IMG/VR virus record: IMGVR_UViG_3300013094_000049
Coordinates: 1 to 62,916 of that record
Reading direction: 5' to 3' (one strand)
DNA: 62,916 nt
DNA from: a virus
A program made the position numbers and the translations under genes. A model generated the notes under the pieces. That model had not been told where the DNA came from. It was given only the letters and a program-made list of their open reading frames with translations, and did not search any database. Shown in pieces: positions 26,164-47,141 of the stretch. How positions within the stretch are numbered: position 1 is the first letter of the stretch; every line of letters starts with the position of its first letter.

Positions 26164-27819
26164 ATGGGTCGTTTTGTACCAATTAGTTTTAACACGGTCG
26201 GCTTAGAAAAACGTGCTCCAAAAGTTTCTGCGGCTGGTTCAGTAGCGGGAGCAAAGAGCTACTATGACGGCACACAATGCTGGCAATATAAAGTAGTGTA
26301 TGATCGTCCAGGATGCTATTGTTTTGTAGTTCCAACGACTGCACTTTGTGCAAGAACAGTTATTGTAGGCGGTGGTGGCAAACCAATGTGTACAAATGGT
26401 AACTGTTGCGGATTTGCTGGAGCAGGCGGAGCATATAGTGAAAAATTTCACTCAGTTACCGGCGGCACTACTTATTTTACAATCTGTGTAGGTCGCCAAC
26501 AACAAAATTCTTCAGTAGCATGTAATGGTAGTGCTGTTCATACAGCGGGTGGTGCATCATATTGCACACCAGGTACAGCAAGTGGTGGAGATTTTAACAG
26601 TAGTGGCGGCCTTGCTGGTTATAACTGTAATTATTGCGCTGGCTCGGTAAGTCATTATTGCGGAGCTTGTATCTATACTAATACAACAACATGTTGCGGT
26701 TATTGCTTAGTGTTTTCATATACAGATGCACAACATGGTGATACCAATGGTTGCTGTTTAGCTGCCTATGCTGGCGGCGGAAGTGCTGGTAGTCCTCGTG
26801 CTTGCCAAGGCGGTTGCGGAATGACTGTTTGTAATTCAGGAACCATTAACCACGGAGCTACAGCAGGCGGCGGTGGTGGTATTGGCGGATTTATTAACGG
26901 AAACACATCTACTTATGTATGGGAATTTACTTGCTGTAACTGTGTTTGCCCATGGTTTGACGGCAATGTCGGCGGCAATTGTCAGTATTGGCGTATCGAT
27001 TATCCCACAGGCGCAGGTGGTGGCGGTGGAAGTCACAGTTCCCAACCACCTAACTGTCGTAGTTGGGAAGGTGTGTGCGGAGCTATGTGGTGGGTTGGCG
27101 GATGTGGCGGACGAGGCGGCGCCAATGTTAGTCCTAAAGAAGGCGCTCCAAACGTTTATGAATTAACTTATCGTTGTCGTTATAACGATAGCTATGGTCA
27201 AAGTTGCCCACATTGGAATATGAAATTCCAACCTAAACTTAACGATCCTTGTCGTTATCCATGGTGGGATGTTTGTAATATCTCTGGTGCAGGTGCTCCA
27301 GGATTTATGAATGAAACTACATATTTCTTCTGTTGCCAGTCAACATTACTAGATGGTTTCTTTGGTCGCCCAAGTAATGCAGGTGAAGGTGGCGGTACAG
27401 GTGGTTGGGTAATGCGTTGTTGCAACATGGATCAGATGGGTGCAATGGTTCCTAAATTTCCTAATAGTCCAGCTGACGGTATTAACTGGACACTATTATG
27501 TTGTTTAGGTAGTCAAGCAGATCCTTTTAGATGTGATGCGGCTTATACACTTAAAGATAAACTATTCAGCGGCGCAATGACTTGCGCAGGTATTTTAGGA
27601 GGTTCAGGTGGCACAGGAGTTTGCTTCTATACTAGTAAAGCAGGATTCGGTGGCGGTGGTGGAACAGCAAAATGCCATATAACATGTGTATGTTGGGGCG
27701 GAAGTTATGACTGTTGCAACGGTTCAGGAGCTCCATTAGCATTTCCACCGTGTTATTTAGATAATTTAGTTAGCAATGCGGGCTCAGGCTACGCAATCGT
27801 ATATTGGAAGGAAGCATAA
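26164..27819 (+). CDS. Cysteine- and glycine-rich putative adhesin A (551 aa)
   Basis: About 49 of 551 residues are Cys, many as CC, CxC or CxxC, with long Gly runs (IVGGGGK, GGGGGIGGF, AGFGGGGGTAK). The N-terminal 130 residues carry a pattern typical of Gly-rich phage fibre domains: a strand, VGGGGK, an AGAGGAYSE loop, then TYFTICVGRQQ. The C-terminus NLVSNAGSGYAIVYWKE is a common ending of such proteins. The next gene encodes a clear paralogue. Polyglycine-rich tips of T-even adhesins (gp38 type) are a plausible structural analogy. The Cys content is extraordinary for a virion protein and contrasts with the Cys-poor giant fibres beside it. Disulphide or metal cross-linking is possible. Function is inferred. 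Confidence 0.7.
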   Translation: MGRFVPISFNTVGLEKRAPKVSAAGSVAGAKSYYDGTQCWQYKVVYDRPGCYCFVVPTTALCARTVIVGGGGKPMCTNGNCCGFAGAGGAYSEKFHSVTGGTTYFTICVGRQQQNSSVACNGSAVHTAGGASYCTPGTASGGDFNSSGGLAGYNCNYCAGSVSHYCGACIYTNTTTCCGYCLVFSYTDAQHGDTNGCCLAAYAGGGSAGSPRACQGGCGMTVCNSGTINHGATAGGGGGIGGFINGNTSTYVWEFTCCNCVCPWFDGNVGGNCQYWRIDYPTGAGGGGGSHSSQPPNCRSWEGVCGAMWWVGGCGGRGGANVSPKEGAPNVYELTYRCRYNDSYGQSCPHWNMKFQPKLNDPCRYPWWDVCNISGAGAPGFMNETTYFFCCQSTLLDGFFGRPSNAGEGGGTGGWVMRCCNMDQMGAMVPKFPNSPADGINWTLLCCLGSQADPFRCDAAYTLKDKLFSGAMTCAGILGGSGGTGVCFYTSKAGFGGGGGTAKCHITCVCWGGSYDCCNGSGAPLAFPPCYLDNLVSNAGSGYAIVYWKEA

Positions 27820-27820
27820 A

Positions 27821-29464
27821 ATGGGACGTTATATAAGTACAGGTTCTACTCAAATTGGAACAAACTGTTGTATAGCTTATACAACAACAACTTGCCAGCA
27901 GTATCCTGGATTTCAATACTCATATGATCTTAATCAATGTTTTCAAAACAGAGTAATGGTTACTAAACCAGGAAGCTATTCTTTTGTGCTACCACTAACT
28001 AGTACTGGTTGTATTCGTGCAATCGCAGTTGGTGGCGGCGGAAAAGCCTGCTGTAGTGATTTTTATTGTAATTTTGCTGGGTCGGGCGGTGGATATGCTG
28101 AAAGCGTACATTGCGTAGCACCAGGTTGTACATTTACTATCGTAGTAGGTCGTCAGCAAGCTAGTACAACAATCAGTTATACTTGCTTAGGCGGAACTGC
28201 TCAAACTGTAACAGGAGGCGGCGCAACCGGTCGCACACCTGGAGTAGGCTCAGGCGGAAATTTAATGAATAGTACTGGTGGATGCGGTGGTTGGGGACGT
28301 AACTATCAAGAAGTTAACGGTACATGCCCAAGTACTTGTATATGTTTTTGCAATACAACTTGCTGTGGATATTGTATCATTTACGGTTGTAATTGCCAAC
28401 AATCTACCTCACAAGATTATTGCGCACACTATTTTCCAGGAGGCGGCAGTGCTGGTAGCTTTATGTTCCCATGCGGTGGTTGCGGTGGTACAGTGTGTAA
28501 TAAAGGCGGTACAACAACTAACAATAACAACGGTGGCTCAATGGCCGGCGGTGGCGGCGGCATTGGATATATTAACAGATGCTGTAGTATCACTGCATTC
28601 TGCGGATGCATCTGTTCTATGTACGGTAACAGCCAACAGCCTTGCGTATGCGGCCCGACAACCGTACAAGGTGGCGGCGGAACACGTTATGCTTATTTGA
28701 ACTCAGCTTGCGAACAAACCATGTGGAACGGTTTATGTGAAGGCGGAGTTTGGCGCATGGGCGCAGGTGGATGGGGTGGTTGTGATAACCAAGAAGGCCG
28801 TCCAGACACAATGTATTGGACATGTGCGCTATGCATGTGTACAGGACGTAGTGAGTTTGATGTATGTTGCGGTATTGCTCCTAAAAAATGGCCATGGTTT
28901 GATATTATGGAAATGGCAGGTAGTGGAAGTTCTGGTAAAGGTATTGGCTATTGTCGTCAGCAGATTAACCAGGATAACTACTGGACTAGTACTAACGGTA
29001 AACAAATGGGTGGTATACCTGAAGATTCGGGCGAAGGCGCAGGAACAGGTGGAGCAATATATCCAGGATTATGTGATGCATATTATGTAAACTGGCCATG
29101 CTTGCCAAGTAGTGTTCAAACTGGCGGTATTGACTGGAATCAAGTTTGTTGTTTTGGCGTAAATAACACTTACAACGATATTTATGATTGCTGTCAATCT
29201 AGTCGTAACCTAGTAGTAGGACATATTAGCCAAGCTGGCACATTAGGCGGAAGCGGCGGTATCGGTGTACATGGATTTGCAAGTAAAGCAGGATTTGGCG
29301 GAGGCGCTGGCGCTTACAAATATTTTGTTCACTGTATTTGTTGGGGAACAGGATATGATTGCTGTGGCGGTTCAGGACCACTATTGGCATTCCCACCCTG
29401 CATATTAGATAATATTGCCAGCAATGCTGGTTCAGGTTTAGCAATAATTTATTGGAAAGATTAA
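27821..29464 (+). CDS. Cysteine- and glycine-rich putative adhesin B (547 aa)
   Basis: Paralogue of the preceding protein, with about 52 Cys. Shared blocks include AVGGGGKACC, the GSGGGYAESVH loop, TFTIVVGRQQ, TCCGYC, GGGSAGS, GGGGGIGYIN, SKAGFGGGAG and the terminal NIASNAGSGLAIIYWKD. The start ATG at 27821 lies one base after the previous stop; the frame is open 45 bases further upstream, but that part overlaps the previous gene's conserved C-terminus. There is no signal peptide or membrane segment. Between conserved blocks the two paralogues differ strongly, as expected for receptor-binding surfaces. Probably a fibre-tip or spike protein working together with copy A. Confidence 0.7.
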   Translation: MGRYISTGSTQIGTNCCIAYTTTTCQQYPGFQYSYDLNQCFQNRVMVTKPGSYSFVLPLTSTGCIRAIAVGGGGKACCSDFYCNFAGSGGGYAESVHCVAPGCTFTIVVGRQQASTTISYTCLGGTAQTVTGGGATGRTPGVGSGGNLMNSTGGCGGWGRNYQEVNGTCPSTCICFCNTTCCGYCIIYGCNCQQSTSQDYCAHYFPGGGSAGSFMFPCGGCGGTVCNKGGTTTNNNNGGSMAGGGGGIGYINRCCSITAFCGCICSMYGNSQQPCVCGPTTVQGGGGTRYAYLNSACEQTMWNGLCEGGVWRMGAGGWGGCDNQEGRPDTMYWTCALCMCTGRSEFDVCCGIAPKKWPWFDIMEMAGSGSSGKGIGYCRQQINQDNYWTSTNGKQMGGIPEDSGEGAGTGGAIYPGLCDAYYVNWPCLPSSVQTGGIDWNQVCCFGVNNTYNDIYDCCQSSRNLVVGHISQAGTLGGSGGIGVHGFASKAGFGGGAGAYKYFVHCICWGTGYDCCGGSGPLLAFPPCILDNIASNAGSGLAIIYWKD

Positions 29465-29474
29465 GGAGAATTAA

Positions 29475-30086
29475 ATGACACAATGGGCTAGAATGATTGC
29501 CGACGATAACGGCGTTTTCGAAGTAACTCAACTTCACGACGAAGATCCAACAGGGATATGGCATCCTGATGAATTAGAAAACTGGAGAGAAGTTTCTGAC
29601 ACTACTGCTATCGGTGATAAACTAGATGCAGATGGTACTTGGCACAAAGGCGGTGACTGGACTGCTAAAGTGATTGCAGAAGCATCTAAGCTAATTGATG
29701 CACCTCCTTTAAATCCAATTCGCAAGCCTCACGGCCATGTAACTAAAGTAGAATTAGTTAATCCAGGTTCAAATTATGAAACTCCGGCAGTTCGTCAACA
29801 ATACAATATTGGCGACGGCGCAGGATTAGTAGTAGAAGTAGATTTTGATCCGGTTACTGAAACAGCTACTGGCACTCCTATCATACATGATGGCGGTTGG
29901 AACTATGTAGTAGGACAAGAATTTCAAATCAAGACAGGCTTTGGACGTGATTGGGACAGAAAAAATCCAAACTATGCAACTGTAAGAATTACAGAAGTAG
30001 TTGATGATCCAGATTTTAAACAAAATCCAGGAGCTATCGGATTCGATCCGACACAACACATTCCCGGTCCTGCACCTAAAGAGTAA
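29475..30086 (+). CDS. Structural protein with GSNYxxP-type repeat (203 aa)
   Basis: The acidic N-terminal half (MTQWARMIADDNGVFEVTQL) is Trp-rich: WHPDELENWREV, then WHKGGDWTAKV. The second half holds VTKVELVNPGSNYETPAV and a GWNYVVGQEF strand, matching the GSGY..P beta segments at the end of the two giant adhesins. It ends in IPGPAPKE. An AAGGAGAAT ribosome site precedes the ATG. It is the last gene of the fibre operon and is followed by a terminator. I do not recognise a specific family; a small fibre-associated or baseplate-linked protein is likely. Confidence 0.62.
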   Translation: MTQWARMIADDNGVFEVTQLHDEDPTGIWHPDELENWREVSDTTAIGDKLDADGTWHKGGDWTAKVIAEASKLIDAPPLNPIRKPHGHVTKVELVNPGSNYETPAVRQQYNIGDGAGLVVEVDFDPVTETATGTPIIHDGGWNYVVGQEFQIKTGFGRDWDRKNPNYATVRITEVVDDPDFKQNPGAIGFDPTQHIPGPAPKE

Positions 30087-30106
30087 TCACTATTACCTTA
30101 CACAAG

Positions 30107-30142
30107 AACCTTGCTGTGCTATATAGTACAGTGAGGTTTTTT
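30107..30142 (+). terminator. Terminator closing the fibre operon, fused to the next ribosome site
   Basis: AACCTTGCTGT (30107-30117) pairs with ACAGTGAGGTT (30128-30138) through 11 pairs including two G-U, followed by TTTT. The 3' arm contains GAGG, spaced 7 nt from the ATG at 30144. The stem therefore also buries the only visible ribosome site of the next gene. Confidence 0.8.
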
Positions 30143-30143
30143 A

Positions 30144-30821
30144 ATGAGTGAACATATCGAATTTTTCCCTATCATTGCTGGTATAGAAAAAATAGAACCA
30201 ATTTTGCCTGCCGGCAAAAATCCACAACAAATTCCGTTTGAGAATGAAAGTCACAGTATGCGCGGTTGTCCGGGGATACGTGACATAATGTCTACAGGGT
30301 ATGTGGTTCGACTATGGCAGGATATTCGAATTACATACGACGGTCAAAATGGTATAAACGCTAGCGCGGCTCCGATGACAGATCACGATGGCAATCCGTT
30401 TGATATGCTACAATTTCATGATGAACGTACCTTTGCAGGATATTCATTTGGCGAAGAATATTTTAATTTTTCTATGAAATTAAGATGCCCATGGTATGTA
30501 CGTACCAAAAAAGACACATCTATACTAACTGTGCCCGTTTTTTATAACGAGTCTCCTTATTTTACTGTATCGAGCGGAGTTATTAACAGTGGTGAATATC
30601 CAATGTTATTAGCACAAGTTATATTAAGAAAATTTCAAGGCGAAATCATACTTAAAAAAGGTACGCCATTGATACAACTAATAGCAATTAAAAAACAACC
30701 TGAAATAAAGATGTATGACACTGATGCGCCAGTTAAAAAAACAGTACAAATTTTAAGAAATTGGCTAGTTAGCAAAACACATGCGGCTTCTCAATATAGA
30801 AATATAGGAAAAATATTATGA
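30144..30821 (+). CDS. Uncharacterised protein resembling the DUF6065 type (225 aa)
   Basis: Features include SMRGCPGIRDIMSTGYVVRL near residue 36 and a C-terminal FQGEIILKKGTPLIQLIAIK strand pair. These recall an uncharacterised family (DUF6065-like) often found near glycan or oxygenase genes; this is pattern memory, not a search. No catalytic triad or membrane segment is evident. It begins one base after the T-run of a terminator, whose 3' arm supplies its ribosome site, so expression is probably low or regulated. Its last bases overlap the following oxygenase gene (ATGA), implying coupled translation and a shared pathway with the accessory cassette. Confidence 0.5.
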   Translation: MSEHIEFFPIIAGIEKIEPILPAGKNPQQIPFENESHSMRGCPGIRDIMSTGYVVRLWQDIRITYDGQNGINASAAPMTDHDGNPFDMLQFHDERTFAGYSFGEEYFNFSMKLRCPWYVRTKKDTSILTVPVFYNESPYFTVSSGVINSGEYPMLLAQVILRKFQGEIILKKGTPLIQLIAIKKQPEIKMYDTDAPVKKTVQILRNWLVSKTHAASQYRNIGKIL

Positions 30822-31387
30822 TGCAAGAACAAGACTTTATAGCAGTCTGGCCTAATTTAGTTCGAAGAGAATTATGCGAAGTTTTGATAGAAGATTTTCA
30901 TCGTCAACGTCCTAGTGATTTAATTGATACAAAAAAACAAGGATTAAAAGATAGATTACCGTTGCATAGAGAAGATTTTGCATTTTTTTTAAATTATCAT
31001 AGTAAGTATGTAGGCGAAATACAAAATAAACTATGGGAAGTATTAGAAGAATACGTCAGTCATTTTCAACAATTACAAGAAGTTCCGCTGTGGACTAGCG
31101 ATATTAAAATGCAATTGACCAAGCCTGGTGGAGGATACCACTCATGGCACTATGAAAATTCTGGATATAATTGTGCTCAACGTGAACTAGTATGGATGAT
31201 TTATCTTAACGACATGCCCGAAGGCGAGGCTGAGACTGAATTTTTACATCAAAAAAGAAGAATACGTCCTACTCAAGGTACAGTGGTAGTGTGGCCAGCA
31301 GGTTTCACACATGTACATCGCGGACTTACTGCGTTAACACAAGACAAATATATTTTAACCGGTTGGTATATTAGAATTCCAAGATAA
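30818..31387 (+). CDS. 2OG-Fe(II) dioxygenase, prolyl-4-hydroxylase-like (189 aa)
   Basis: The C-terminal half has the double-stranded beta-helix pattern. YHSWHYEN supplies an H-x-E metal pair (about H111, E113). WMIYLND is the following strand. GTVVVWPAGFTHVHRG supplies the distal His (165 or 167), and YILTGWYI ends the sheet. Such enzymes use Fe(II), O2 and 2-oxoglutarate to hydroxylate proteins or small molecules. H-x-E in place of the commoner H-x-D is unusual but known in the superfamily. It overlaps the preceding gene by four bases. With the glycosyltransferase and carbamoyltransferase genes downstream, it may modify a virion or cell-surface substrate; the substrate is unknown. Confidence 0.75.
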   Translation: MMQEQDFIAVWPNLVRRELCEVLIEDFHRQRPSDLIDTKKQGLKDRLPLHREDFAFFLNYHSKYVGEIQNKLWEVLEEYVSHFQQLQEVPLWTSDIKMQLTKPGGGYHSWHYENSGYNCAQRELVWMIYLNDMPEGEAETEFLHQKRRIRPTQGTVVVWPAGFTHVHRGLTALTQDKYILTGWYIRIPR

Positions 31388-31388
31388 A

Positions 31389-31844
31389 ATGAAGACTATA
31401 TATTATTCATCTTGTGTTCCACCTGAATTGTATAACAACGATTTTATGTTATACCAAGAGCCGGATAGTTTGTATAAAGATATTTTAAAAAATAAAAACA
31501 AACAAAACGATTTTAATAATTACATGGATTGTCCAGCATTTTTAAAATCTACAAATAACACGTTCATAGTTCGTAATCCTTGGACTACAACTATAACTAT
31601 CGATTATGCCACTGGTAAATTTTTAAATCAATATGGCCAAGAAGATGCAATTTCTGAACACTTTACACCTAAACCTATATCACGTGTACAGCCATTATTT
31701 AATGTCTATCACAATTTTTTATTTTTAGTGAAGAAGATATGGAAATATCAACTTTTCCTGCGTACATGCATACTAGTGAATTTCAAACTAAATGTACGTA
31801 TATTCCGGGAACATTTAATATTGCCAAATGGTTACGCCCAGTAG
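31389..31844 (+). CDS. Upstream part of a frameshift-split gene (0 frame, 151 aa)
   Basis: It begins MKTIYYSSCVPPELYNNDFM and shows normal coding character up to NVYHNF (about residue 110). After that the 0-frame sequence turns into low-quality Lys/Leu/Phe-rich peptide to the stop at 31844. At that point a T_TTT_TTA heptamer (31715-31721) lies exactly in frame. A -1 shift continues as IFSEEDMEISTFPAYMH, joining the downstream frame to give a ~240-aa product. Either a programmed frameshift or an indel in a run of six T explains this. No family with a known function is recognised; the composition (NPWTTTITIDY) suggests a soluble globular protein. Confidence 0.6.
   Translation: MKTIYYSSCVPPELYNNDFMLYQEPDSLYKDILKNKNKQNDFNNYMDCPAFLKSTNNTFIVRNPWTTTITIDYATGKFLNQYGQEDAISEHFTPKPISRVQPLFNVYHNFLFLVKKIWKYQLFLRTCILVNFKLNVRIFREHLILPNGYAQ
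31715..31721 (+). other. Candidate -1 frameshift heptamer U_UUU_UUA
   Basis: T_TTT_TTA in the 0 frame (codons AAT TTT TTA) is the classical slippery heptamer. After slippage the next codon is ATT at 31721, entering the downstream frame, which has been open only since its stop at 31700-31702. A small hairpin GATAT-GGAA-ATATC (31736-31749) follows 14 nt later; it is weak. A homopolymer sequencing error is the alternative. Confidence 0.5.
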
Positions 31845-32110
31845 AAGGTGCATTTGAGTTGCAATCTAACACAAATAATCTACAACTTAAAACAGGAGAT
31901 CCGTTGTATTATATAAAGTTTAACACTAGTGAACCTGTTAAATTTGTTAGGTTTGATCTCACAGCGGAGTTATGGAATATGGCCCAAGGTTGTGTGTTTC
32001 ATAAAAAATATCAACCTAATAAATCATTGTCCTACTTATACAAATTATTTTTCCATTCAGGACGACAGAAACTTGTATTAAAAAAAATTAAAGAAAATAT
32101 AATAAAATGA
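31739..32110 (+). CDS. Downstream part of the frameshift-split gene (-1 frame, 123 aa from its first ATG)
   Basis: This frame is coding-like from about 31721: IFSEEDMEISTFPAYMHTSE, then PLYYIKFNTSEPVKFVRFDL and a Lys-rich C-terminal helix. It lacks a ribosome site before the ATG at 31739, so production as a -1 fusion with the upstream frame is more likely than separate initiation. Its stop overlaps the ATG of the next gene (32107), so the split protein belongs to the same tightly packed cassette. The YYIKFNT...VRFDL segment looks like a conserved phage protein of unknown role. Confidence 0.6.
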   Translation: MEISTFPAYMHTSEFQTKCTYIPGTFNIAKWLRPVEGAFELQSNTNNLQLKTGDPLYYIKFNTSEPVKFVRFDLTAELWNMAQGCVFHKKYQPNKSLSYLYKLFFHSGRQKLVLKKIKENIIK

Positions 32111-32877
32111 AAAAAATATTATACGCAATGGGCGACAGCTTTACATTTGGAATGGAGTGTCTTGGCGATTTTGATAGAACATTAGGTAATATAGAGTTGG
32201 CATTTCCCAAATATGTTAGTGATTATATGAACTGTGAAAAATATATCAATAATTCATATAACGGCGCTAGTAATGATTTTATTTTTAAAAGAACCATTTT
32301 TGATTTAATGGAATTAGAACGTCAAGGTGTTGATCCTAAAGATGTTTTTGTTATTGTTGGTTGGAGCAGTTTACATAGAATAGAAATCGACGGATCTCGA
32401 TGGTTGGAACAGATTCCAGATTTTATGGCAGGCGACTTAAAAAATGATCCGTCTTGGCCCAGAGAGTATACTGATTTTGGAGTTATATTTGCTAATCCAG
32501 GATCAGGCATTAGACTAACAGTAAAAGATACTGTTATTAGTATAGATCGAGATGTGATTCCATTTTGCACTCATTTTTTATGGACAGATGTTGTTCAAAT
32601 TGAAACCCAAGAAGCAAGAATTATTGCATTGCACGAACTATTAAAAGCCAAAGGATACGATCATGTGTTTGCCAGTATGTGCCATCCTTTTTTGAAAACC
32701 AGAAACATAGACAGCGAGAATAAAAACTTTTATAATATAACAACATCTAGTTTTTATGATTTTGCCATAGTGAATTATCCAACAGAATTACGCAAACACA
32801 ATCATTTTACAACTGTTGTACATGAAAAATATGCCGAAAAACTGTTTGAATATATTACAAAAAATTGTATTTCGTAA
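32107..32877 (+). CDS. SGNH/GDSL-type hydrolase-like protein (256 aa)
   Basis: Block I is AMGDSFTFG (G9-D10-S11, the usual nucleophile region). A GASNDF segment at residues 53-58 corresponds to the oxyanion-hole Asn block. A C-terminal KHNHFTTVVHEKYAEKL segment holds candidate catalytic His (233 or 239). VFVIVGWSSLHRIEI is the expected core strand. SGNH enzymes hydrolyse esters on acylated sugars, lipids or peptides. There is no signal peptide, so it acts in the cytoplasm or on nascent virions. It follows the split gene with a four-base overlap and precedes the glycosyltransferase, pointing to sugar or glycan (de)acylation; the substrate is inferred only. Confidence 0.72.
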   Translation: MKKILYAMGDSFTFGMECLGDFDRTLGNIELAFPKYVSDYMNCEKYINNSYNGASNDFIFKRTIFDLMELERQGVDPKDVFVIVGWSSLHRIEIDGSRWLEQIPDFMAGDLKNDPSWPREYTDFGVIFANPGSGIRLTVKDTVISIDRDVIPFCTHFLWTDVVQIETQEARIIALHELLKAKGYDHVFASMCHPFLKTRNIDSENKNFYNITTSSFYDFAIVNYPTELRKHNHFTTVVHEKYAEKLFEYITKNCIS

Positions 32878-32901
32878 TTGCAGGTTTGGTATTTTAACTA
32901 C

Positions 32902-32909
32902 TATAAATA
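32902..32909 (+). promoter_or_regulatory. Consensus late promoter TATAAATA
   Basis: A perfect T4 late consensus in the 58-base gap before the glycosyltransferase gene, 26 bases upstream of the ATG at 32936, followed by an AAAGGA ribosome site. Confidence 0.8.
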
Positions 32910-32935
32910 ATTAACTACGTATATTAAAGGATATT

Positions 32936-33859
32936 ATGAAAAAAGTTGTGTTTATTAACGGCGGAGCTGGTAGAGTTATAGCAAGTATTCCCGCCTTAGA
33001 AGAAGCAAACAAGCGAGGATTGCTTGCTGGTATTGTTTGCGAAGGCGGCTTAGAGATTTTTTTAGGGCATCCTACACTACAAAAAATAGCCTTTGATGTA
33101 AATCATAAAGGTATTTTTGAAAATCTTATTAAAGATAACGAATGTGTTTCGACAGAACCGTATAGAGATCACGAATATTATAATCAACGTAGCAGTTTGC
33201 AACAAAGTTTCTGGTGGGAAATACTAGCAGAACGTACTGATCAAAATCGTAAACCAACATTAGTCCTGAGCAAAACTGAGGAAATGAACGCTATTGGTAT
33301 TATGACACAAGTGCGTCAACAGCATCAAAAAGAAAAAACGATTGTTATCCAGCCGTTTGGTCGCAGTAGTGTTATGGGCCCAGGTGTTGTATTTGATCCT
33401 AGCAGTCGTAGTATTGAACAAACTACGTTTATTGAATTAGTAGGCGAATTAAGCAAAGACTACAATATGGTTTACATGGGCGAACATAAGCTAGATGTAA
33501 TGAATCTCCCTTTATTCCAACCTCAAGATCGTGTTGATCTACGCACATGGGCGGCTGTTATTGAAAGCGCCGATTATTTTATCGGATGCGATAGTGTGGG
33601 ACAACATATTGCTTATGCATTTGATAAACCAGGTACAGTAGTTTGTGGTAGTACTTTCCCTATCAACACAACATATCCAGAACATTTTAATATTATTGAA
33701 AAGAAAGGTGCCGAACGAGTATATAGCCCAATTAGAATCGCTGGATTTGCTAGCGAAGAAGCAGATAGACTTAACGATACAATAATGGATTTTAGCAAAG
33801 ACGAACTAAAACAAGTCATTGCTAGTATTCGAGACCATATCAAGAAGACAACCAAATAA
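32936..33859 (+). CDS. GT9-like glycosyltransferase (heptosyltransferase type, 307 aa)
   Basis: The N-terminus INGGAGRVIASIPALEEANK matches the glycine-rich start of the ADP-heptose:LPS heptosyltransferase (GT9, GT-B fold) pattern. A second-domain strand VIQPFGRSS follows at about residue 137. The C-terminal AAVIESADYFIGCDSVGQHI block corresponds to the sugar-nucleotide site of this family (DS-G..H.A), followed by KPGTVVCGSTFP. About 307 residues is close to the usual length. No signal peptide is seen. Driven by a consensus late promoter and followed 8 bases later by a carbamoyltransferase gene, it probably adds a sugar to a virion protein, DNA or host surface glycan. The acceptor cannot be read from the sequence. 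Confidence 0.72.
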   Translation: MKKVVFINGGAGRVIASIPALEEANKRGLLAGIVCEGGLEIFLGHPTLQKIAFDVNHKGIFENLIKDNECVSTEPYRDHEYYNQRSSLQQSFWWEILAERTDQNRKPTLVLSKTEEMNAIGIMTQVRQQHQKEKTIVIQPFGRSSVMGPGVVFDPSSRSIEQTTFIELVGELSKDYNMVYMGEHKLDVMNLPLFQPQDRVDLRTWAAVIESADYFIGCDSVGQHIAYAFDKPGTVVCGSTFPINTTYPEHFNIIEKKGAERVYSPIRIAGFASEEADRLNDTIMDFSKDELKQVIASIRDHIKKTTK

Positions 33860-33867
33860 GGAAAACC

Positions 33868-35577
33868 ATGTATCTTTTAGGAATTAATATCGGGCATAAT
33901 GGAAGCACAGCCCTTTTTAAAGACAGTGAATTAATATTTTACGTCGAAGAGGAACGTTTAACTAGGCAAAAATACGATGGTAATCCGTTTGCAGGAATAG
34001 ATTTAGCATTTACGCATACTGACCATATAGATTTTTTAGTTATTTGTTCTACATCGAATAATTTTCCAATTACTCCATGGAGTCAAGAAGATGTATACAC
34101 TTCTGTAGTTAGGAAAAAACAACCAGGTAGACATTTTCAAACAGTTCCAGCAGGCGACATGCATCATATGACACATGCGCTAACTGCATTTTATAATAGT
34201 GGATTTGATGATGCGGCAGCTTTGGTCATCGATGGCGCTGGCAGCGGTTGCACTGTAGATGAATTTAAAACATTAACATGGGAAGTTGAATCTATATGGG
34301 ACTTGTCTTATCCAGCAAACTGTCGAGCAGTATATAAACAATATGGTGCTAATCATTGCGATAGTTTTGCATTAGAAGAAGATGATGTGCCTATTGAGAT
34401 TTCCGACGGCCACGGACTTACTAAAGCCTACGAAGCAGTAACACAGTTTTTAGGGTTTCATCCAATCGAAGCTGGTAAGACTATGGGTCTCGCGCCTTAT
34501 GGAAAACCAAACGATTCCATTAAAATTAACGATGGTAGATTTACTAATCGTAGTTTTATTAAACCACGTTTCCCAGCAGGAAATTTCATCCGTGCCGATT
34601 TAGATGCAGAGCTAGCTCAGTTAAATGATAAAAAAGAATGGCATGAAGACGAAAGTCTAGTAGGCGAGTATAGAAAAGATCTTGCGTATGCTGTACAAAA
34701 AGCTGCCGAAGAGAGAGTATTTGGTTTGATCCGCAAGACAATCGAAATGACTGGAAAGAAAAAGATTGTTATGGCCGGAGGCTTTGGTCTAAATTGTGTG
34801 GCTAATTATGAGTATCTTAAAGAATTTCCAGATGTAGAATTTTATCACGAACCTATCAGTCATGATGGCGGAAATGCAATCGGTGTTTGCCAATACATTT
34901 ATCGTAGTGTTACAGAAGACATGGTTAAAACTCCATTGACTAGTTTGTATCTCGGACCTGTTGATCCTAAACAGTATGATGATATCGATTATACTGGGTT
35001 TGTAACTAAAGACACTACTGCAACTGAAGTGGCACAACTAATTGCCAATGGTAATATTGTTTGTTTATATCAAGGACGTAGCGAAGCTGGTCCCCGAGCA
35101 TTAGGTAATAGAAGTATTGTTTACGATCCAACTGTATTGAATGGTAAAGATATTGTTAATGAAGTAAAACGCAGAGAGTGGTTTAGACCATTTGCAGGAT
35201 CTGTACTAGCAGAACATGCTAATGATTGGTTTGATTTCCGATCTCGTAGTGATAGTCCGTTTATGATGTATGCAGTAGATGTTAAAGAAGATAAGCAAAG
35301 TATTATTCCTGCCATCACACACGTAGATGGTACTTGCCGTATTCAAACAGTAACAGCAGAACAAAACCCTAACTATTATGAATTGATTAGTGAATTTAAT
35401 AAAATTAAAAATGTTCCTATCTTGTTTAATACAAGTTTTAATCTAGCAGGAGATCCTCTAGTTGAAACCGTAAAACAAGCCTTAGAAACACTAGCTAATT
35501 CAGATTTAAAATATCTTTGGTTGCCCGAGCTAGGAAAACTAATCAGCAAAAGTGACTTTGAAGAAGTTAATCAGTAA
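33868..35577 (+). CDS. Carbamoyltransferase, NodU/CmcH family (569 aa)
   Basis: The N-terminal ASKHA-type domain begins LGINIGHNGSTALF and carries the metal-site block GDMHHMTHALTAFYNSGF (H99, H100, H103) followed by ALVIDGAGSG. The C-terminal domain has GRSEAGPRALGNRSIV and RREWFRPFAGSV, then NTSFNLAGDP. Family members use carbamoyl phosphate and ATP to place a carbamoyl group on a hydroxyl of a sugar or antibiotic. The length is normal. It has an AAGGAAAAC ribosome site and follows the GT9-like gene by 8 bases, so a carbamoylated sugar product is a reasonable inference. Homologues occur in T4-like marine phages, so this is an accessory gene with known phage relatives. Confidence 0.88.
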   Translation: MYLLGINIGHNGSTALFKDSELIFYVEEERLTRQKYDGNPFAGIDLAFTHTDHIDFLVICSTSNNFPITPWSQEDVYTSVVRKKQPGRHFQTVPAGDMHHMTHALTAFYNSGFDDAAALVIDGAGSGCTVDEFKTLTWEVESIWDLSYPANCRAVYKQYGANHCDSFALEEDDVPIEISDGHGLTKAYEAVTQFLGFHPIEAGKTMGLAPYGKPNDSIKINDGRFTNRSFIKPRFPAGNFIRADLDAELAQLNDKKEWHEDESLVGEYRKDLAYAVQKAAEERVFGLIRKTIEMTGKKKIVMAGGFGLNCVANYEYLKEFPDVEFYHEPISHDGGNAIGVCQYIYRSVTEDMVKTPLTSLYLGPVDPKQYDDIDYTGFVTKDTTATEVAQLIANGNIVCLYQGRSEAGPRALGNRSIVYDPTVLNGKDIVNEVKRREWFRPFAGSVLAEHANDWFDFRSRSDSPFMMYAVDVKEDKQSIIPAITHVDGTCRIQTVTAEQNPNYYELISEFNKIKNVPILFNTSFNLAGDPLVETVKQALETLANSDLKYLWLPELGKLISKSDFEEVNQ

Positions 35578-36145
35578 ACAAGTCGTTATTTAGATCGCCT
35601 TCGATCAAATAATTGTAATTTAGCGTAACTCTCCAATCGGATAACTCTGTTGGAGAGTTTGCTTTATGCATATAGCAAGCTGGAAATACTACGATCCTGC
35701 CAGCTTTAGGTTCGACAGAAGCCGCTATTGATCCATCTCCGTGATAAAATTCAGTGGCTCCTGTGCTGTCATATACATAATATAACATTGCCCACATATT
35801 AGGTTTAGGACTATCATTATGTAAACTTGCCACATTTCCAGTATTCATGCCGTTTACTCGAATACGTGTTAAGTCTCTGAGAACAGCAGTCGAATCGATA
35901 GTTTTAAGAACATGTTTCATAAAATACTCATTAAGAGTACGTACAAATTCAGGATTACCGTGATACCAACCACCTTGCCTGTTGTCAAATAACATTGCAC
36001 CAAACAACCATCCTAGTTCAGGTTTTGCAGTATCGCCATAGTGGAACGGATAATATCTATAGTTTGAAAAGTCTGTTTTTCCGTATTCTACTAACCATTC
36101 TTGTATATCGTCTAAAACGATAATTTTATCAAGATTAATTTTCAT
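35567..36145 (-). CDS. 2OG-Fe(II) dioxygenase, prolyl-4-hydroxylase-like (192 aa)
   Basis: Metal ligands are visible as ASLHNDSP (H109, D111) and CYMHKANSP (H160), and the 2-oxoglutarate Arg as DWRVTLNYNY (R172). The GRIVVFPACYMH strand is typical of phage P4H-like enzymes, and TEFYHGDGS lies between. It catalyses Fe(II)/2-oxoglutarate-dependent hydroxylation; the substrate is unknown. It is transcribed opposite to the carbamoyltransferase gene, with which its 3' end overlaps by 11 bases. Its start overlaps the stop of the HAD-like gene (ATGA), so the two are co-translated. The second, more canonical (H-x-D) oxygenase of the cassette; the one at 30818 has H-x-E. Confidence 0.8.
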   Translation of the reverse strand: MKINLDKIIVLDDIQEWLVEYGKTDFSNYRYYPFHYGDTAKPELGWLFGAMLFDNRQGGWYHGNPEFVRTLNEYFMKHVLKTIDSTAVLRDLTRIRVNGMNTGNVASLHNDSPKPNMWAMLYYVYDSTGATEFYHGDGSIAASVEPKAGRIVVFPACYMHKANSPTELSDWRVTLNYNYLIEGDLNNDLFTD

Positions 36146-36720
36146 AGAGATTCTGCAAATTCCAATAGACTAGAAAATTCTTGTGCTTTTACATTGTTGG
36201 TTAGTTCAAATGCTTTAGTTTTAAGAACACTTCCTGCAGGTTTAATTAGAACAGGAGTAGCTTTGACTTTTAATGCGGCTTTGACATCGTTTAAATCCGC
36301 ACCAATGTAATAGCTTTCTTCCCATACTACCATATTTTCATTTTGCGCACGTTCAAACATGCCCGGATTAGGTTTTACAAACGGGTCAGTCTTATCTGTA
36401 CTTGGTGCATAATATGCATTTTTAATTCTTGCACCTACTGAATCTGCGATTTCTTTTGTAGCACCTAAGATATTTTCAAAATCAACTATTTCTAAATTCT
36501 TAGTCTTGTTTGGTGGCTGTCCTGCAATAATTAAGAAATCATAACCCTTTCTAGTTAAAATGCCCAGGGCAGTTTCTACACCTTCAGCTATTGAAAGTTT
36601 GTTACCCGGAGTAAAAGGAGTAGTATTATTGTAAATTACTCCAAATAGCGTTAATCCTATTACTTTTCTACTGGCTTGCATTTGCCAAATTTCTTTAAAA
36701 TACTCAGTATACCGACCCAT
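36142..36720 (-). CDS. HAD-like protein with degenerate catalytic motifs (192 aa)
   Basis: The fold pattern resembles GmhB/histidinol-phosphatase-type HAD enzymes: GLTLFGVIYNN at residues 22-32 stands where LDRDGVIN is expected, FLIIAGQPPN where VTNQSG is expected, VKPNPGMFERA matches the RKPKPGM block (K116), and YIGADLNDVKAA matches VGDxxxD. Both motif I aspartates, including the nucleophile, are replaced (T, F), and the Gly-Asp pair of the last motif is Gly-Ala. The zinc-loop Cys are also absent. It may therefore bind rather than hydrolyse sugar phosphates, or have lost activity. It has a CGAGGAG ribosome site and is the first gene of a two-gene leftward unit. Confidence 0.65.
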   Translation of the reverse strand: MGRYTEYFKEIWQMQASRKVIGLTLFGVIYNNTTPFTPGNKLSIAEGVETALGILTRKGYDFLIIAGQPPNKTKNLEIVDFENILGATKEIADSVGARIKNAYYAPSTDKTDPFVKPNPGMFERAQNENMVVWEESYYIGADLNDVKAALKVKATPVLIKPAGSVLKTKAFELTNNVKAQEFSSLLEFAESL

Positions 36721-36785
36721 ACAAAACTCCTCGTGTTACAGTAATTTAGCATATTTTTCAGCCCGCGACAATAATATTGACTATG

Positions 36786-36793
36786 AATAAATA
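36786..36793 (+). promoter_or_regulatory. T4-type late promoter AATAAATA followed by CAGTACTG
   Basis: AATAAATA lies 20 bases before the ATG at 36814. The palindrome CAGTACTG follows two bases later (36796-36803). The same late-motif/palindrome pairing occurs at 55679-55694. Confidence 0.7.
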
Positions 36794-36813
36794 CACAGTA
36801 CTGATGAGACTAT

Positions 36814-37848
36814 ATGAACTTCACTGATTTCTTCACAAGAGGGTTTTCAAACACTCTTAAATTCAAAAATCAAGCAAACTTCTCCTTTAGAGGAACTGCT
36901 GTTACTGTAACCGCCAACACGGTGATCGATAGTTGGAACTTACAAGATTTTAGTAGTGCAACTTACGAAATTGTGATGGAGTACGGCACTGACGATGTAG
37001 AACACGTTAATATTATAGCTAGTGCTCGCGCAAATCAAGCAAGCGTAACGGTATTTGGAAGAACAAATTTAGGTCGAGACTTGGTGCAATTTACAGCTAC
37101 AGTAGACAACAATGTAGTTAAAATTATTGCAAATCCATTTTATGCCACTGATACTGTAACTCCATTGGCAGGAATTAAAGTTATCTACAAAGCTACATAC
37201 AGCGAACGAGTGCTAAAATTAAGCGTTCCGCAAACAGTAGGCGAAACAAGCTCTCTCGGTGGAGCTCAAGGTTTACAATTAAACTGGAATAATAGTAATT
37301 TACCTAATGGATTTTTATCGATAACAGAATCTGGGCTTATTGAAATTGGAGCAATTACAAACGTAGCAGTGCCCGGTCAAACTACGTTGTCAGCGGCTTT
37401 TATTCTCGACAGCTTGGCAATTACAAATAGTGATAATTCGATATCGCTAACAACAGATTCTATAGGGCGAATTTTATCATTTACAGCTAGCAATTATCCT
37501 AGTATAGGAGTTACTGGTGCATTTACTAGTAGCCTTTCAGGCACTACTAATACTATAGATCGAACAACTATTGGATCTATTGCTCCAACATACGGACAAT
37601 TTACTGTGTTAGGATCAACGGGTGCTACAACATTCTCAGGAAATACAATCATTAGACCAACTGGAACTGGAACAGTGACAATGTCATCAGCAACAACTGG
37701 TAGCATGGATAATGTGTTGATAGGATCAGTAACACCTGCAAGCGGAAGATTTTCAAATTTAACTCTTAATACAGAAACACAAGTTGGTAATAATCTTATT
37801 AATCTTAATGCTGTTAAAAAAATACTATTGCTAGGAGCAATTAAATGA
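36814..37848 (+). CDS. Baseplate/tail fibre-like structural protein (344 aa)
   Basis: The N-terminal 140 residues form a distinct domain: FFTRGFSNTLKFKNQANFSF, then SSATYEIVMEYGTDDVEHV, which looks like a conserved virion domain for attachment. The rest is fibre-like, with FLSITESGLIEIG and the repeat GSMDNVLIGSVTPASGRFSN near the C-terminus, of the form T-DN--IG--TPA-G-F--L. This repeat recurs in the next two proteins. No catalytic residues are visible. It has its own late promoter and overlaps the next gene by four bases (ATGA). It begins the second fibre block after the accessory cassette. A baseplate-proximal fibre subunit is the inferred role. Confidence 0.68.
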   Translation: MNFTDFFTRGFSNTLKFKNQANFSFRGTAVTVTANTVIDSWNLQDFSSATYEIVMEYGTDDVEHVNIIASARANQASVTVFGRTNLGRDLVQFTATVDNNVVKIIANPFYATDTVTPLAGIKVIYKATYSERVLKLSVPQTVGETSSLGGAQGLQLNWNNSNLPNGFLSITESGLIEIGAITNVAVPGQTTLSAAFILDSLAITNSDNSISLTTDSIGRILSFTASNYPSIGVTGAFTSSLSGTTNTIDRTTIGSIAPTYGQFTVLGSTGATTFSGNTIIRPTGTGTVTMSSATTGSMDNVLIGSVTPASGRFSNLTLNTETQVGNNLINLNAVKKILLLGAIK

Positions 37849-38369
37849 GTGCATATACATACATAGCAGTTTCAGGACAAAATACAATTGGTCTGAACGC
37901 AACAACAAACACGTTAACACTGGTTGGCGGAAACGGCATAGTTCTTACTACTAATTCTTCAACAAATACTGTTAATATTGCAGTGAGCCCAACGTTAAGT
38001 TTGTCTACTTTAAATGTTACTAATACGTTAAACATTAATCCTTCAACCGCTGGCACATTGGATAATATTACTATTGGTAGCATTACTCCTCGCCCTGCAA
38101 CATTTACCACATTAACCGCAACTGCAACTACAACTATATCTCCTGCTAATTTTCCAGTAACCATTAGTCCTACTGGTTCAGGATCAATAATTATTAATCC
38201 TGCAACTACTGGAACGTTAGACAACGTTGCTATTGGAGCAACTACTGCGGCCGCTGGAACATTTACCACTGTAAGTATAACTAGTACACAACAATTTGCC
38301 AGCAATAGTGCAGTGACTAAAAACTTTGCCACAGCACTTGCGGCAGCTTATGGCATAGCGATGGCTTAA
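37845..38369 (+). CDS. Fibre-like protein with TLDN-IG-TP repeats (174 aa)
   Basis: The N-terminus MSAYTYIAVSGQNTIGLNAT is followed by an LVGGNGIVLTTN strand, then two copies of the repeat: GTLDNITIGSITPRPATFTT and GTLDNVAIGATTAAAGTFTT. This repeat is frequent in phage tail fibres. The C-terminus is a short Ala-rich helix (ATALAAAYGIAMA). The start overlaps the preceding stop by four bases and the next ATG follows after one base, so the three proteins are co-translated and may form one complex. There is no visible enzymatic function. Confidence 0.65.
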   Translation: MSAYTYIAVSGQNTIGLNATTNTLTLVGGNGIVLTTNSSTNTVNIAVSPTLSLSTLNVTNTLNINPSTAGTLDNITIGSITPRPATFTTLTATATTTISPANFPVTISPTGSGSIIINPATTGTLDNVAIGATTAAAGTFTTVSITSTQQFASNSAVTKNFATALAAAYGIAMA

Positions 38370-38370
38370 T

Positions 38371-39141
38371 ATGAGTTCAGTAACTAAATTATTTCGTAGT
38401 CAAAATGGATTTACTAGTCCATATTTTGTAGTAGATTCTAATGGAAATTTAATTGCCAGTAGTCTTGTAGTTACTGGTAATAGGATTGAAATCAGTGCAG
38501 GTTGTTATATAAGCTATAACGGAAGACCTTTATTAACTAATACTAGTTTATCTAGTAGCGTAGTTAATATTCCGGGAACACTAACTAGTTTAACAGTAGG
38601 TGGTATAACTACTCTTACAGGGGCATTGACAGCAAGCGGTGGAGTTATTTCGGTAACAGGCACTGCCGGGAGCACATTAGATAATGTAACTATTGGTTCA
38701 GTTACTCCGGCTGCCGCAACATTTACAGCCCTAACAACTACTGGAAATACATCATTTGGCGGTACTAGTTCGTTTACAATTAATAATACTGGATCTGTTA
38801 CTATTAGTCCTACAGGAACTATAACACTAGGTACTCCTGGACAAATTAAGATCCTAGCAGGTAATATTCAGGCGATTACTCAAAATCAAACAATTAATTT
38901 CAGCCCAACTGGTACAGGAAATGTTGTAATTAACCCAACTGGATTAGGTTCCGTAGACAATATGACTATAGGTTTAACAACTCCTGCCGCTGGTCAAATG
39001 ACAACATTAACACTAACAGCTAATAACGAGTCTTACTGGAACGCTGTTAGTAACCCCACTAACCCTAGAAGTCAAGCAACTACTAAAAGATACGCAGAAC
39101 AAGCCGCATGGGCCATAGGATTCTTCACAAGATCAATCTAA
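38371..39141 (+). CDS. Fibre-like protein with TLDN-IG-TP repeats (256 aa)
   Basis: It begins MSSVTKLFRSQNGFTSPYFV and contains two repeats, STLDNVTIGSVTPAAATFTA and GSVDNMTIGLTTPAAGQMTT, as in the two preceding genes. The C-terminus (RSQATTKRYAEQAAWAIGFF) is a short helix-forming tail, as in many fibre proteins. It begins one base after the previous stop. Followed by a late promoter for the next, much larger gene. A fibre subunit role is inferred from repeats and position. Confidence 0.65.
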   Translation: MSSVTKLFRSQNGFTSPYFVVDSNGNLIASSLVVTGNRIEISAGCYISYNGRPLLTNTSLSSSVVNIPGTLTSLTVGGITTLTGALTASGGVISVTGTAGSTLDNVTIGSVTPAAATFTALTTTGNTSFGGTSSFTINNTGSVTISPTGTITLGTPGQIKILAGNIQAITQNQTINFSPTGTGNVVINPTGLGSVDNMTIGLTTPAAGQMTTLTLTANNESYWNAVSNPTNPRSQATTKRYAEQAAWAIGFFTRSI

Positions 39142-43728: not shown

Positions 43729-43757
43729 AAAAAAGCCGCTAAATGCGGCTTTTTTTA
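43729..43757. terminator. Bidirectional terminator between convergent genes
   Basis: AAAAAAGCCGC-TAAAT-GCGGCTTTTTT is a perfect 11-bp stem with an A-run on one side and a T-run on the other, so it works on both strands. The leftward NUDIX gene's stop codon (43755-43757) touches its right arm. Confidence 0.93.
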
Positions 43758-44204
43758 TAAGTTATCTACTATATCTATAATAGTTTGTATTTTAGTCTGT
43801 ATTACTCGATTCCGAAGACTAAGATCTAATCCTTTGTGTATAGGTTTAGGAAAACGTGACAAAGTAAACCATCCCCATGCACTATGCTCGTCGCTTAATA
43901 TAGGAACAAATTCATCTTCTACTACACAAAAATAAGTATGAAAATTAAAAACAGCGTCGTTGCTGGTAAATTTTTCTAAAGGCAAGGCTTTTTTTATAAC
44001 GGGTAATGATCCTAATTCTTCTTCAATTTCACGTTGTAGTCCTTGCCATGGATTTTCGTGAGCCAGATTAGTGCCGCCTACCAGTCCCCAAGTATCAGCA
44101 TGTTTACCATGATTTTTTTGTAACAGTAAAAATCGTCGTGTAGATTTGGCACATATTAACGCACCGCTACAAATAATTTTATCTGTTATAGTTCTAGTCT
44201 CCAT
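43755..44204 (-). CDS. NUDIX hydrolase (149 aa)
   Basis: A complete Nudix box is visible from G44 to G65: GTNLAHE, seven residues, then REIEEELG. The residue spacing fits G-x5-E-x7-RE-x-x-EE-x-G. The preceding TWGLVGG strand and a C-terminal WFTLSRFPKPIHK segment also fit. NUDIX enzymes hydrolyse nucleoside diphosphates linked to another group (for example oxidised dNTPs, ADP-sugars or capped RNA); the substrate cannot be told here. Its start overlaps the end of gp15 by 19 bases, so it is translated with the neck/tail genes. Phage NUDIX genes are common, but one appended to gp14-gp15 is noteworthy. An ADP-sugar activity would fit the glycan cassette; this is speculation. Confidence 0.88.
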   Translation of the reverse strand: METRTITDKIICSGALICAKSTRRFLLLQKNHGKHADTWGLVGGTNLAHENPWQGLQREIEEELGSLPVIKKALPLEKFTSNDAVFNFHTYFCVVEDEFVPILSDEHSAWGWFTLSRFPKPIHKGLDLSLRNRVIQTKIQTIIDIVDNL

Positions 44205-45655
44205 TGCCCGGCCCTATATTCACCTTCAAAGCTCTTAACCCACGAAACGCCGTTCCATAAGTATTGAACTCCAGTGTATATATTCGTTTGCCAGATCATA
44301 GTAGTAGTTTCTTGAGCACTATGAAATATTACATTCCACTGTGTACCAGTGTATTCGATAATATCATTAGCTACTGCTACTAATGGTCCCCAAGCACTAG
44401 CATATTTTCCATCAGCAATACTTGCGGCATCTCCAATATCTTCGATAATAAGATATCTTGTTCCTGCGATTGCCGAACTAGGATTATACGTCAATGGATT
44501 AACAATAGCATCAAATGTACCTGGACTGTTTGGTCTGTACCCTGAAGCCGGATTGTAATGAGTAACATCTGTATCTAAAAATCCGTTACTATCGATTCCG
44601 GTATTTGTTACTAGAGTATCAAGGTCCCAGTTAATCATTAATACTGTAGTATCTACAGGATTCAATGCAACAGTTCCTGCAATTTCAGTCCCAGTTTCTT
44701 GTATTAAATAAATTCTACTACTACCAGCAACATATTGTCCAGGATATTGTGAAAACACTTCTGCCCAATCGATTAATGGACCTTGTTTTACACTAATATC
44801 TAAACTAGGTTCTCTTGGAATAACACTTTCGCTTTCTCCTAGTATTCTAGCTTGACCATTATATACTTGGATTCCAAAACTACTTATAGTTGTTACTTGT
44901 TGAGTTAATAAGTTAGTTAAAATTATATTGCCTTCTTGCTCTGGATCGGATCCGAGACCTTCAATATAGCCATACCCGTCTTGAGTCATAGCACCATCAT
45001 TATAAAAACTAGTAATAATCTTCTTAATAATTCCAAGATGTTTTACCTTAGCTGGAGGACTGATCCATATCGGTGTTTCTACAGTAATAGTAGCTATGTC
45101 GATTGGAGTGTCTGTTCCAACTGGCACACTTCTACTACTCCAATTAATATCATTTAAATTTAATACGGTAAGACTAGTCCAATCTATATAGTTGTCAGTT
45201 GTTTGTAATTCTAAACTAGGATTAAACAATACTAGTATTTGTTCAAGTATTTGCAATTTTTGATCTGTATTTGCTGACCAAATATCTATTTTCATTTGCA
45301 ATTCGAATGGAGTAGGCATTATACGTTCAACTGTATAGTTTCTGCCTTGGTTATTTGTGTAAGCTCCACTAGCTACATCGCGCTCGCGAATATGTACCTT
45401 GCCTACATAAGTTGCATCAGCTAGTCTATTACGATCTAGTTTAAGTTCTTTAACGTATACTGCAATTCTAGGAACGCTGTTGATTTTATTTTCGCTGTTA
45501 TTTTTTATAATATTAGCAACTTGACGATCAACATCTCCATACATTACCGGAACTTGATGTAAGGTTCCATCGCCATATTTGACTACGAAATTACTAAGTA
45601 CTCTTATTGTCTGCGTTATATAACGTCTTATTTGGCCATCGTAAAAATGTTGCAT
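44186..45655 (-). CDS. 15: Tail completion/sheath stabiliser gp15-like, C-terminally extended (489 aa)
   Basis: The first ~270 residues follow the T4 gp15 layout: MQHFYDGQIRRYITQTIRVL corresponds to MFGYFYNSSFRRYATLMGDL, a VPVMYGD strand follows, then PRIAVYVKEL, RIMPTPFELQMKIDIWSANT and EQILVLFNPSL. T4 gp15 caps the tail terminus and binds the neck. T4 gp15 has 272 residues; the extra ~215 here contain beta-rich repeats ending QYLWNGVSWVKSFEGEYRAG, a module used by other phage structural proteins. Its start overlaps the gp14-like stop by one base (TAATG). It is leftward, opposite to gp13. Confidence 0.8.
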   Translation of the reverse strand: MQHFYDGQIRRYITQTIRVLSNFVVKYGDGTLHQVPVMYGDVDRQVANIIKNNSENKINSVPRIAVYVKELKLDRNRLADATYVGKVHIRERDVASGAYTNNQGRNYTVERIMPTPFELQMKIDIWSANTDQKLQILEQILVLFNPSLELQTTDNYIDWTSLTVLNLNDINWSSRSVPVGTDTPIDIATITVETPIWISPPAKVKHLGIIKKIITSFYNDGAMTQDGYGYIEGLGSDPEQEGNIILTNLLTQQVTTISSFGIQVYNGQARILGESESVIPREPSLDISVKQGPLIDWAEVFSQYPGQYVAGSSRIYLIQETGTEIAGTVALNPVDTTVLMINWDLDTLVTNTGIDSNGFLDTDVTHYNPASGYRPNSPGTFDAIVNPLTYNPSSAIAGTRYLIIEDIGDAASIADGKYASAWGPLVAVANDIIEYTGTQWNVIFHSAQETTTMIWQTNIYTGVQYLWNGVSWVKSFEGEYRAGQWRLEL

Positions 45656-47100: not shown

Positions 47101-47105
47101 AGTGA

Positions 47106-47113
47106 TATTTATC
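47106..47113 (-). promoter_or_regulatory. Leftward late promoter GATAAATA
   Basis: The + strand reads TATTTATC, which is GATAAATA on the - strand. It lies 5 bases before the gp14-like ATG (47100), again leaving almost no leader. It forms a divergent pair with the motif at 47118. Confidence 0.75.
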
Positions 47114-47117
47114 GTAT

Positions 47118-47125
47118 GATAAATA
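47118..47125 (+). promoter_or_regulatory. Rightward late promoter GATAAATA
   Basis: GATAAATA lies 16 bases before the gp13-like ATG, with GGAGA between. It is only 4 bases from the equal but opposite motif, so two late polymerases would diverge from a 20-base element. Confidence 0.78.
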
Positions 47126-47141
47126 TGTATGGAGAACTTAT

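Follow-up and report, generated by a model that had tools for sequence, protein, structure and literature searches.

The DNA examined here is the 62.9-kb virus record IMGVR_UViG_3300013094_000049 (62,916 nt; hereafter the window), in which a cassette of enzyme genes at positions 30144–36720 is crowded between tandem glycine/cysteine-rich (Gly/Cys-rich) adhesin genes (26164–29464) and fibre-like genes (36814 onward). As judged from its sequence, the source appears to be a large aquatic T4-like phage; T4-like matches in the window include tail-fibre, tail sheath stabilizer, neck protein and deoxynucleoside monophosphate kinase genes, and a DNA-level search among isolates for near relatives returned only one 45-base match. 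A preliminary description of the same DNA had proposed nine genes that together decorate a virion fibre or remodel a host surface sugar. Its reading frames, strands and 4-nt overlaps were reproduced, and profile searches assigned two 2-oxoglutarate (2OG)-Fe(II) oxygenases, a NodU/TobZ-type carbamoyltransferase and a GmhB-type HAD protein, with weak matches for the GT9 and SGNH proteins. The dense enzyme block between adhesin and fibre/neck genes stands, but two of the nine frames belong to a single frame-broken gene. The features of the locus are as follows.

26164–27819, plus strand: Gly/Cys-rich adhesin 1, 551 amino acids, 18% Gly and 9% Cys, a candidate acceptor (from composition and an AlphaFold model)
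27776–29464, plus strand: Gly/Cys-rich adhesin 2, 562 amino acids, a tandem paralogue 40% identical to adhesin 1, whose gene its first codons overlap
29475–30086, plus strand: conserved 203-amino-acid protein of unknown function in the interval from adhesins to cassette, with homologues at the equivalent place in the clade
30104–30143, plus strand: intrinsic-terminator-like hairpin and T run between the adhesin genes and the cassette (minimum free energy -21.6 kcal/mol, z -7.1)
30144–30821, plus strand: phrog_7084 protein, function unknown (PHROG E 1e-28)
30818–31387, plus strand: 2OG-Fe(II) oxygenase, prolyl 4-hydroxylase (P4H)-like, H-x-E...H...K (PF13640 2e-9, phrog_61 2e-44)
31389–32110, plus strand: phrog_17480 gene, broken by a frameshift into 31389–31844 and 31739–32110, intact in relatives
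32107–32877, plus strand: SGNH-like protein, a possible O-acyl transferase or esterase (weak profile match, GDS block)
32902–32909, plus strand: T4-type late promoter TATAAATA, with the GT9 start 26 nt downstream
32936–33859, plus strand: GT9-fold (heptosyltransferase-like) glycosyltransferase, phrog_8954 (PHROG 9e-98; AlphaFold mean predicted local distance difference test score, pLDDT, 93.7)
33868–35577, plus strand: NodU/TobZ-type O-carbamoyltransferase (PF16861 9e-62, PF02543; PDB relatives 7xb6, TobZ and GdmN)
35567–36145, minus strand: second 2OG-Fe(II) oxygenase, H-x-D...H...R (PF13640 3e-6, phrog_274 5e-25, weak FlmC-family match)
36142–36720, minus strand: GmhB-derived HAD pseudo-phosphatase, nucleophile and acid/base Asp both lost (GmhB PRK08942 2.5e-12)
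36814–39141, plus strand: three genes for fibre-like virion proteins, which form the island's conserved right-hand border and have a separate late promoter at 36787

IMG/VR supplied close relatives of both the GT9 and the HAD protein, and distant GT9 relatives were collected by profile (more than 580 exist, of which the best 80 were kept; some are near-duplicates between samples). Pair counts refer to the 94 GT9 loci with usable downstream sequence. The carbamoyltransferase gene lies downstream of the GT9 gene on the same strand in 91 of these, within 200 bp in 69. In the isolates S-CAM1, P-SSM2, S-SSM7, S-CAM3 and Sf-FS3, the pair is located between tail-fibre and neck genes, and in the N4-like Vibrio phage SBP1 a 25% identical GT9 homologue is flanked by a tail fibre gene and a tail gene. 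Among GT9 loci spanning 10 kb or more, 67/84 showed a virion marker, a minimum count since the markers came solely from the window and S-CAM1. Within the window's clade, Gly/Cys-rich adhesins precede the cassette in every locus for which upstream DNA was fetched, L053 included. The slots before the GT9 gene and after the carbamoyltransferase gene vary by phage and are filled by 2OG oxygenases, SGNH proteins, a tryptophan halogenase, a methyltransferase or unknowns; the window shares the full set of its first four shell genes only with its nearest relatives (L012, L013 and L030). The cassette is a conserved GT9 and carbamoyltransferase core within a variable shell, and only the pair is conserved as a unit. 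The neighbourhood comparison did not find the genes occurring singly, remote from fibre loci and without Cys/Gly-rich genes. The proposal that all nine form one functional unit was abandoned in favour of a conserved core and a shuffled shell, with one gene broken and the HAD protein a pseudoenzyme. Virion decoration is favoured over host takeover because the pair is near-invariant, lies among fibre and neck genes, follows adhesins in the clade and has a late promoter; the modification itself is what this arrangement suggests.

The late promoter upstream of the GT9 gene is genuine, as had been proposed. ATAAATA has fewer copies in the window than shuffles predict, yet nine of its 11 plus-strand copies are within 60 nt of a start codon, and the promoter is kept 19–31 nt upstream of the transferase in 17/17 loci of the window's clade. 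Late expression is accordingly supported for the GT9/carbamoyltransferase pair but not for the HAD/oxygenase pair, which has no late promoter. Several relatives instead have, ahead of the HAD gene (window 36721–36813, minus strand), a conserved AT-rich block (GCTAAATTACTATAA-like), which may be an early or middle promoter.

By sequence, the GT9 protein scored 19.3 bits against PF01075 (below the cut-off of 22) and 23 bits against TIGR02201 (cut-off 170), with profile matching confined to the C-terminal donor half. Sequence searches against the PDB gave no match, and the fold search alone succeeded: the 30 best PDB matches of the model were all GT9 enzymes (E 2e-9 to 3e-7, TM-score 0.50–0.66), led by TibC, then a Veillonella GT9, WaaF and WaaC. 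TibC heptosylates the adhesins TibA and AIDA-I, and genes of its family often precede their autotransporter (PMC4358343). The bacterial autotransporter heptosyltransferases TibC and AAH are encoded beside an adhesin and use ADP-heptose; in the window's clade, the phage GT9 gene comes after tandem adhesins. In contrast to TibC and AAH, the phage protein has no N-terminal β-barrel, beginning directly with the GT-B N-lobe, and no four-Cys iron finger (Cys-x-x-Cys pairs are absent); identity is about 12%, and Arg replaces the catalytic Asp.

Both domains of the carbamoyltransferase, the N-terminal Kae1-like PF02543 and the C-terminal YrdC-like PF16861, scored above cut-off, and the active-site motifs HHxxHA, DGAG, GGxxLN, GPRALG and NTSFN are present. 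In these domains and motifs, the phage enzyme resembles the O-carbamoyltransferases NodU, NolO, TobZ and CmcH, from which it differs in that its lineage is tied to GT9. In the cyanophage S-RIM44 (L048:4361–6616), a ThyX thymidylate synthase gene is overlapped by a carbamoyltransferase that is itself broken into two reading frames. Located apart from the fibre genes, this carbamoyltransferase is a candidate base-modifying enzyme of a cyanophage.

A source of the sugar was sought in the gene content of the relatives. In isolated cyanophages, the pair is accompanied by an almost complete ADP-heptose pathway. Their islands also encode both HldE domains (kinase and adenylyltransferase), HldD, a cupin and a HAD phosphatase. 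The heptose-7-phosphate kinase co-occurs in 22 of the 23 phage records with a phrog_8954-type GT9, the exception being a 4-kb fragment, and heptose genes were found inside the fetched stretch at 37/94 GT9 loci. In the nearest relative (a 356-kb contig; GT9 86% identical), the HldE kinase, HldE adenylyltransferase, cupin and two HldD-like genes are clustered far from the cassette. HldE/HldD genes lie away from the cassette in G001, G011, G003 and G005, and the idea that the window's clade had lost the heptose pathway, with the HAD protein dying as a result, was for this reason rejected. The cyanophage "phosphoheptose isomerase" (L002:17903–18247 and homologues) is not GmhA but, by profile, an EcbF/BcbF-like HAD phosphatase; the phage heptose pathway therefore has no isomerase step. 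The lipopolysaccharide (LPS) of marine Synechococcus WH8102 and CC9311 is without heptose (PMC4515613). Because Sf-FS3, a phage of WH8102, nevertheless carries the pair and HldE/HldD, phage heptose is unlikely to be meant for the host LPS core. Heptose transfer from ADP-heptose by the GT9 protein is suggested by this linkage to heptose genes.

The HAD protein is related to the GmhB heptose-bisphosphate phosphatase by its HAD-IIIA profile match, and active homologues stand beside HldE/HldD in related viruses. It departs from GmhB in having an extra conserved N-terminus and in the loss of both catalytic Asp residues: motif I reads G-L-T-L-F-G in place of D-x-D, and motif IV reads IGADLND. D-x-D is kept in 15/15 GmhB homologues beside HldE/HldD, whereas both Asp residues are lost in all HAD proteins of the window's clade. 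The inactive proteins form one clade (support 100/99; its long branches are noted) and are under purifying selection, with a ratio of nonsynonymous to synonymous substitution of about 0.01–0.2 in close pairs. Intact GmhB and inactive HAD occur together in two relatives (G003 and G005), so the latter is better seen as a repurposed paralogue than as a product of decay. That it acts as an accessory or scaffold protein is no more than a guess.

The interpretation preferred here, held at a probability of about 0.5, is that the cassette is a tail-fibre decoration locus, whose phage-encoded products would heptosylate and carbamoylate a virion adhesin late in infection. The GT9-fold transferase would place a sugar, most likely heptose from ADP-heptose, on a phage adhesin or fibre, for which the adjacent tandem Gly/Cys-rich adhesins are the best candidate acceptors. 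The carbamoyltransferase would then cap a hydroxyl of the transferred sugar, and the shell, with the 2OG oxygenases and the SGNH protein among its members, would contribute further, phage-specific group changes (hydroxylation, perhaps acylation). ADP-heptose would be supplied by phage HldE/HldD encoded elsewhere in the genome, by the host, or by both, and the GmhB-like HAD protein, its phosphatase function gone, would be retained for another role. The benefit may lie in receptor tuning or in masking against host defences or proteases. The best PDB match of the adhesin 1 model (pLDDT 65, partly confident) was the fibre of cyanophage Pam3 (7ypx, E 1e-3), ahead of the ALK glycine-rich domain; its matches among viral proteins were glycine-rich phage proteins, syn9 gp38 among them.

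Several observations weigh against fibre heptosylation. When N-termini are compared with WaaC without gaps, all 49 phage sequences have Arg13 at the place of the catalytic Asp (D13 in WaaC, D110 in TibC); activity or linkage may therefore differ, or the protein may not be a classical transferase, and the enzyme is GT9-like in fold rather than a proven heptosyltransferase. Cyanophages with the pair have no Gly/Cys-rich adhesins, which therefore cannot be the sole acceptor. The terminator-like hairpin that sets the adhesin genes apart from the cassette is conserved in the nearest relatives, being found also in L030 and, by sequence, in L012. HldE and HldD are absent from the window, itself a fragment; no GmhA isomerase was seen, and the nearest relative has no intact GmhB.

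An alternative considered unlikely is that the enzymes alter the LPS or another surface glycan of the host, for example to block superinfection or to free progeny from receptors. LPS core and lipo-oligosaccharides are classical targets of GT9 and NodU-type enzymes, heptose is an LPS sugar, the GT9 fold matches include WaaC and WaaF, and the Pseudomonas LPS core bears O-carbamoyl-heptose. This account is weakened by the late promoter and the location within fibre genes, by the heptose-free LPS of Synechococcus, whose phages carry heptose-making genes, and by the recurrence of a virion gene neighbour even in an N4-like phage.

It is also quite unlikely that the locus holds no common pathway at all, unrelated host-derived genes having accreted at a hypervariable fibre locus where only the GT9 and carbamoyltransferase matter, for an unknown small molecule or metabolite. 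Fast turnover of shell genes between close relatives fits such accretion, as do the frame-broken gene and the pseudoenzyme of the window. However, the same few classes (P4H-type oxygenases, SGNH proteins, halogenase and methyltransferase) recur in independent cyanophage and clade islands, as swapped modifying enzymes would. Modification of DNA or nucleotides, in which oxygenases prepare a base and a hydroxymethylated base is carbamoylated as by the 5-hydroxymethylcytosine carbamoyltransferase, is highly improbable: a phage-type enzyme producing 5-carbamoyloxymethylcytosine is known (PMC8670742) and 2OG oxygenases can oxidise bases, but the window enzyme is only 25% identical to that carbamoyltransferase and distant from it in the tree, the cassette oxygenases match P4H-type PF13640 rather than TET/JBP, the carbamoyltransferases of unmodified contigs are reported to be flanked by genes such as glycosyltransferases (PMC8670742), and ten relatives, the 356-kb contig among them, lack the hallmark partner, thymidylate synthase/deoxycytidine monophosphate hydroxymethylase PF00303, although these records may be fragments and the window was not searched with this family.

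The cassette finds its closest parallel in the cyanophage islands with a Nol-like carbamoyltransferase (T4-GC 302/303; P-SSM2, S-SSM7, S-CAM1 and S-CAM3), which share the homologous phrog_8954 GT9 and carbamoyltransferase in the same order, the fibre-to-neck position and 2OG oxygenases. They differ in having HldE/HldD inside the island and no homologue of the Gly/Cys-rich adhesins. The cyanophage carbamoyltransferase had been catalogued in genome papers, and marine-phage 2OG enzymes had earlier been seen as possible manipulators of nitrogen signalling or DNA repair in the host (PMC3037559). The cyanophage pair is annotated merely as hypothetical protein and carbamoyltransferase, and the papers found propose no pathway for it. 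A search of the open-access literature found no prior description of a phage heptosyltransferase and carbamoyltransferase system, or of a P4H with a tail fibre. The parts belong to known families, and the pair, read from sequence as a fibre-linked heptose/carbamoyl system, appears to be without earlier description in that literature.

A broader proposal is offered tentatively: aquatic T4-like phages may possess a widespread, hitherto unrecognised virus-encoded protein glycosylation system with their own ADP-heptose, an Asp-less GT9 acting on receptor-binding fibres, a carbamoyl cap, a swappable layer of hydroxylation, halogenation or acylation, and a repurposed GmhB pseudo-phosphatase as accessory subunit. 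The carbamoyltransferase, 2OG oxygenase and heptose genes that marine phages carry have long been listed as host-like metabolic genes; the comparison joins them into a single locus that is linked to fibres, is expressed late, and combines a conserved core with a supply of heptose. An old loose end can thereby be addressed by mass spectrometry of phages that are already cultured. If the proposal is true, phage host recognition has a chemical layer that is invisible in fibre sequences.

Among the shell genes, both cassette oxygenases carry the metal triad and C-terminal basic 2OG-binding residue expected of the 2OG-Fe(II) family, and the H-x-E of the first (30818–31387) is kept in L012 and L030. 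Several PHROG members labelled "DNA endonuclease V" (phrog_274, phrog_2297) are 2OG oxygenases. Relatives of the phrog_7084 protein (syn9 gp43, S-RIM44) are found in cyanophage islands, where tryptophan halogenases and 2OG oxygenases are their neighbours. The two frames of the phrog_17480 gene (31389–31844 and 31739–32110) match successive stretches of one intact 239-amino-acid protein in L012, and the gene is intact at this length in L030 as well. The frameshift may be a real mutation or an assembly error; a sequencing or assembly error is possible because the break is near a T-rich stretch. In the SGNH-like protein, G-D-S-F and His233 are invariant over 15 relatives, and the Asp of block V (D-x-x-H) is missing in the window's subfamily. 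Shell families of the relatives had been suspected from P-loop motifs to be sulfotransferases, an identity that neither Pfam and PHROGs nor, in the case of one family, PDB profiles confirmed.

Relatives of the locus were also seen on jumbo-sized T4-like contigs without psbA, namely L012 (356 kb), L053 (280 kb) and L071 (372 kb), so the window's clade is probably not cyanobacterial. Farther along the window (43755–47181), a sheath-stabilizer-like gene (44186–45655) and a virion gene (45655–47181) lie on the minus strand and adjoin a plus-strand gp13, unlike the isolated cyanophages viewed, in which the neck genes are all on a single strand.

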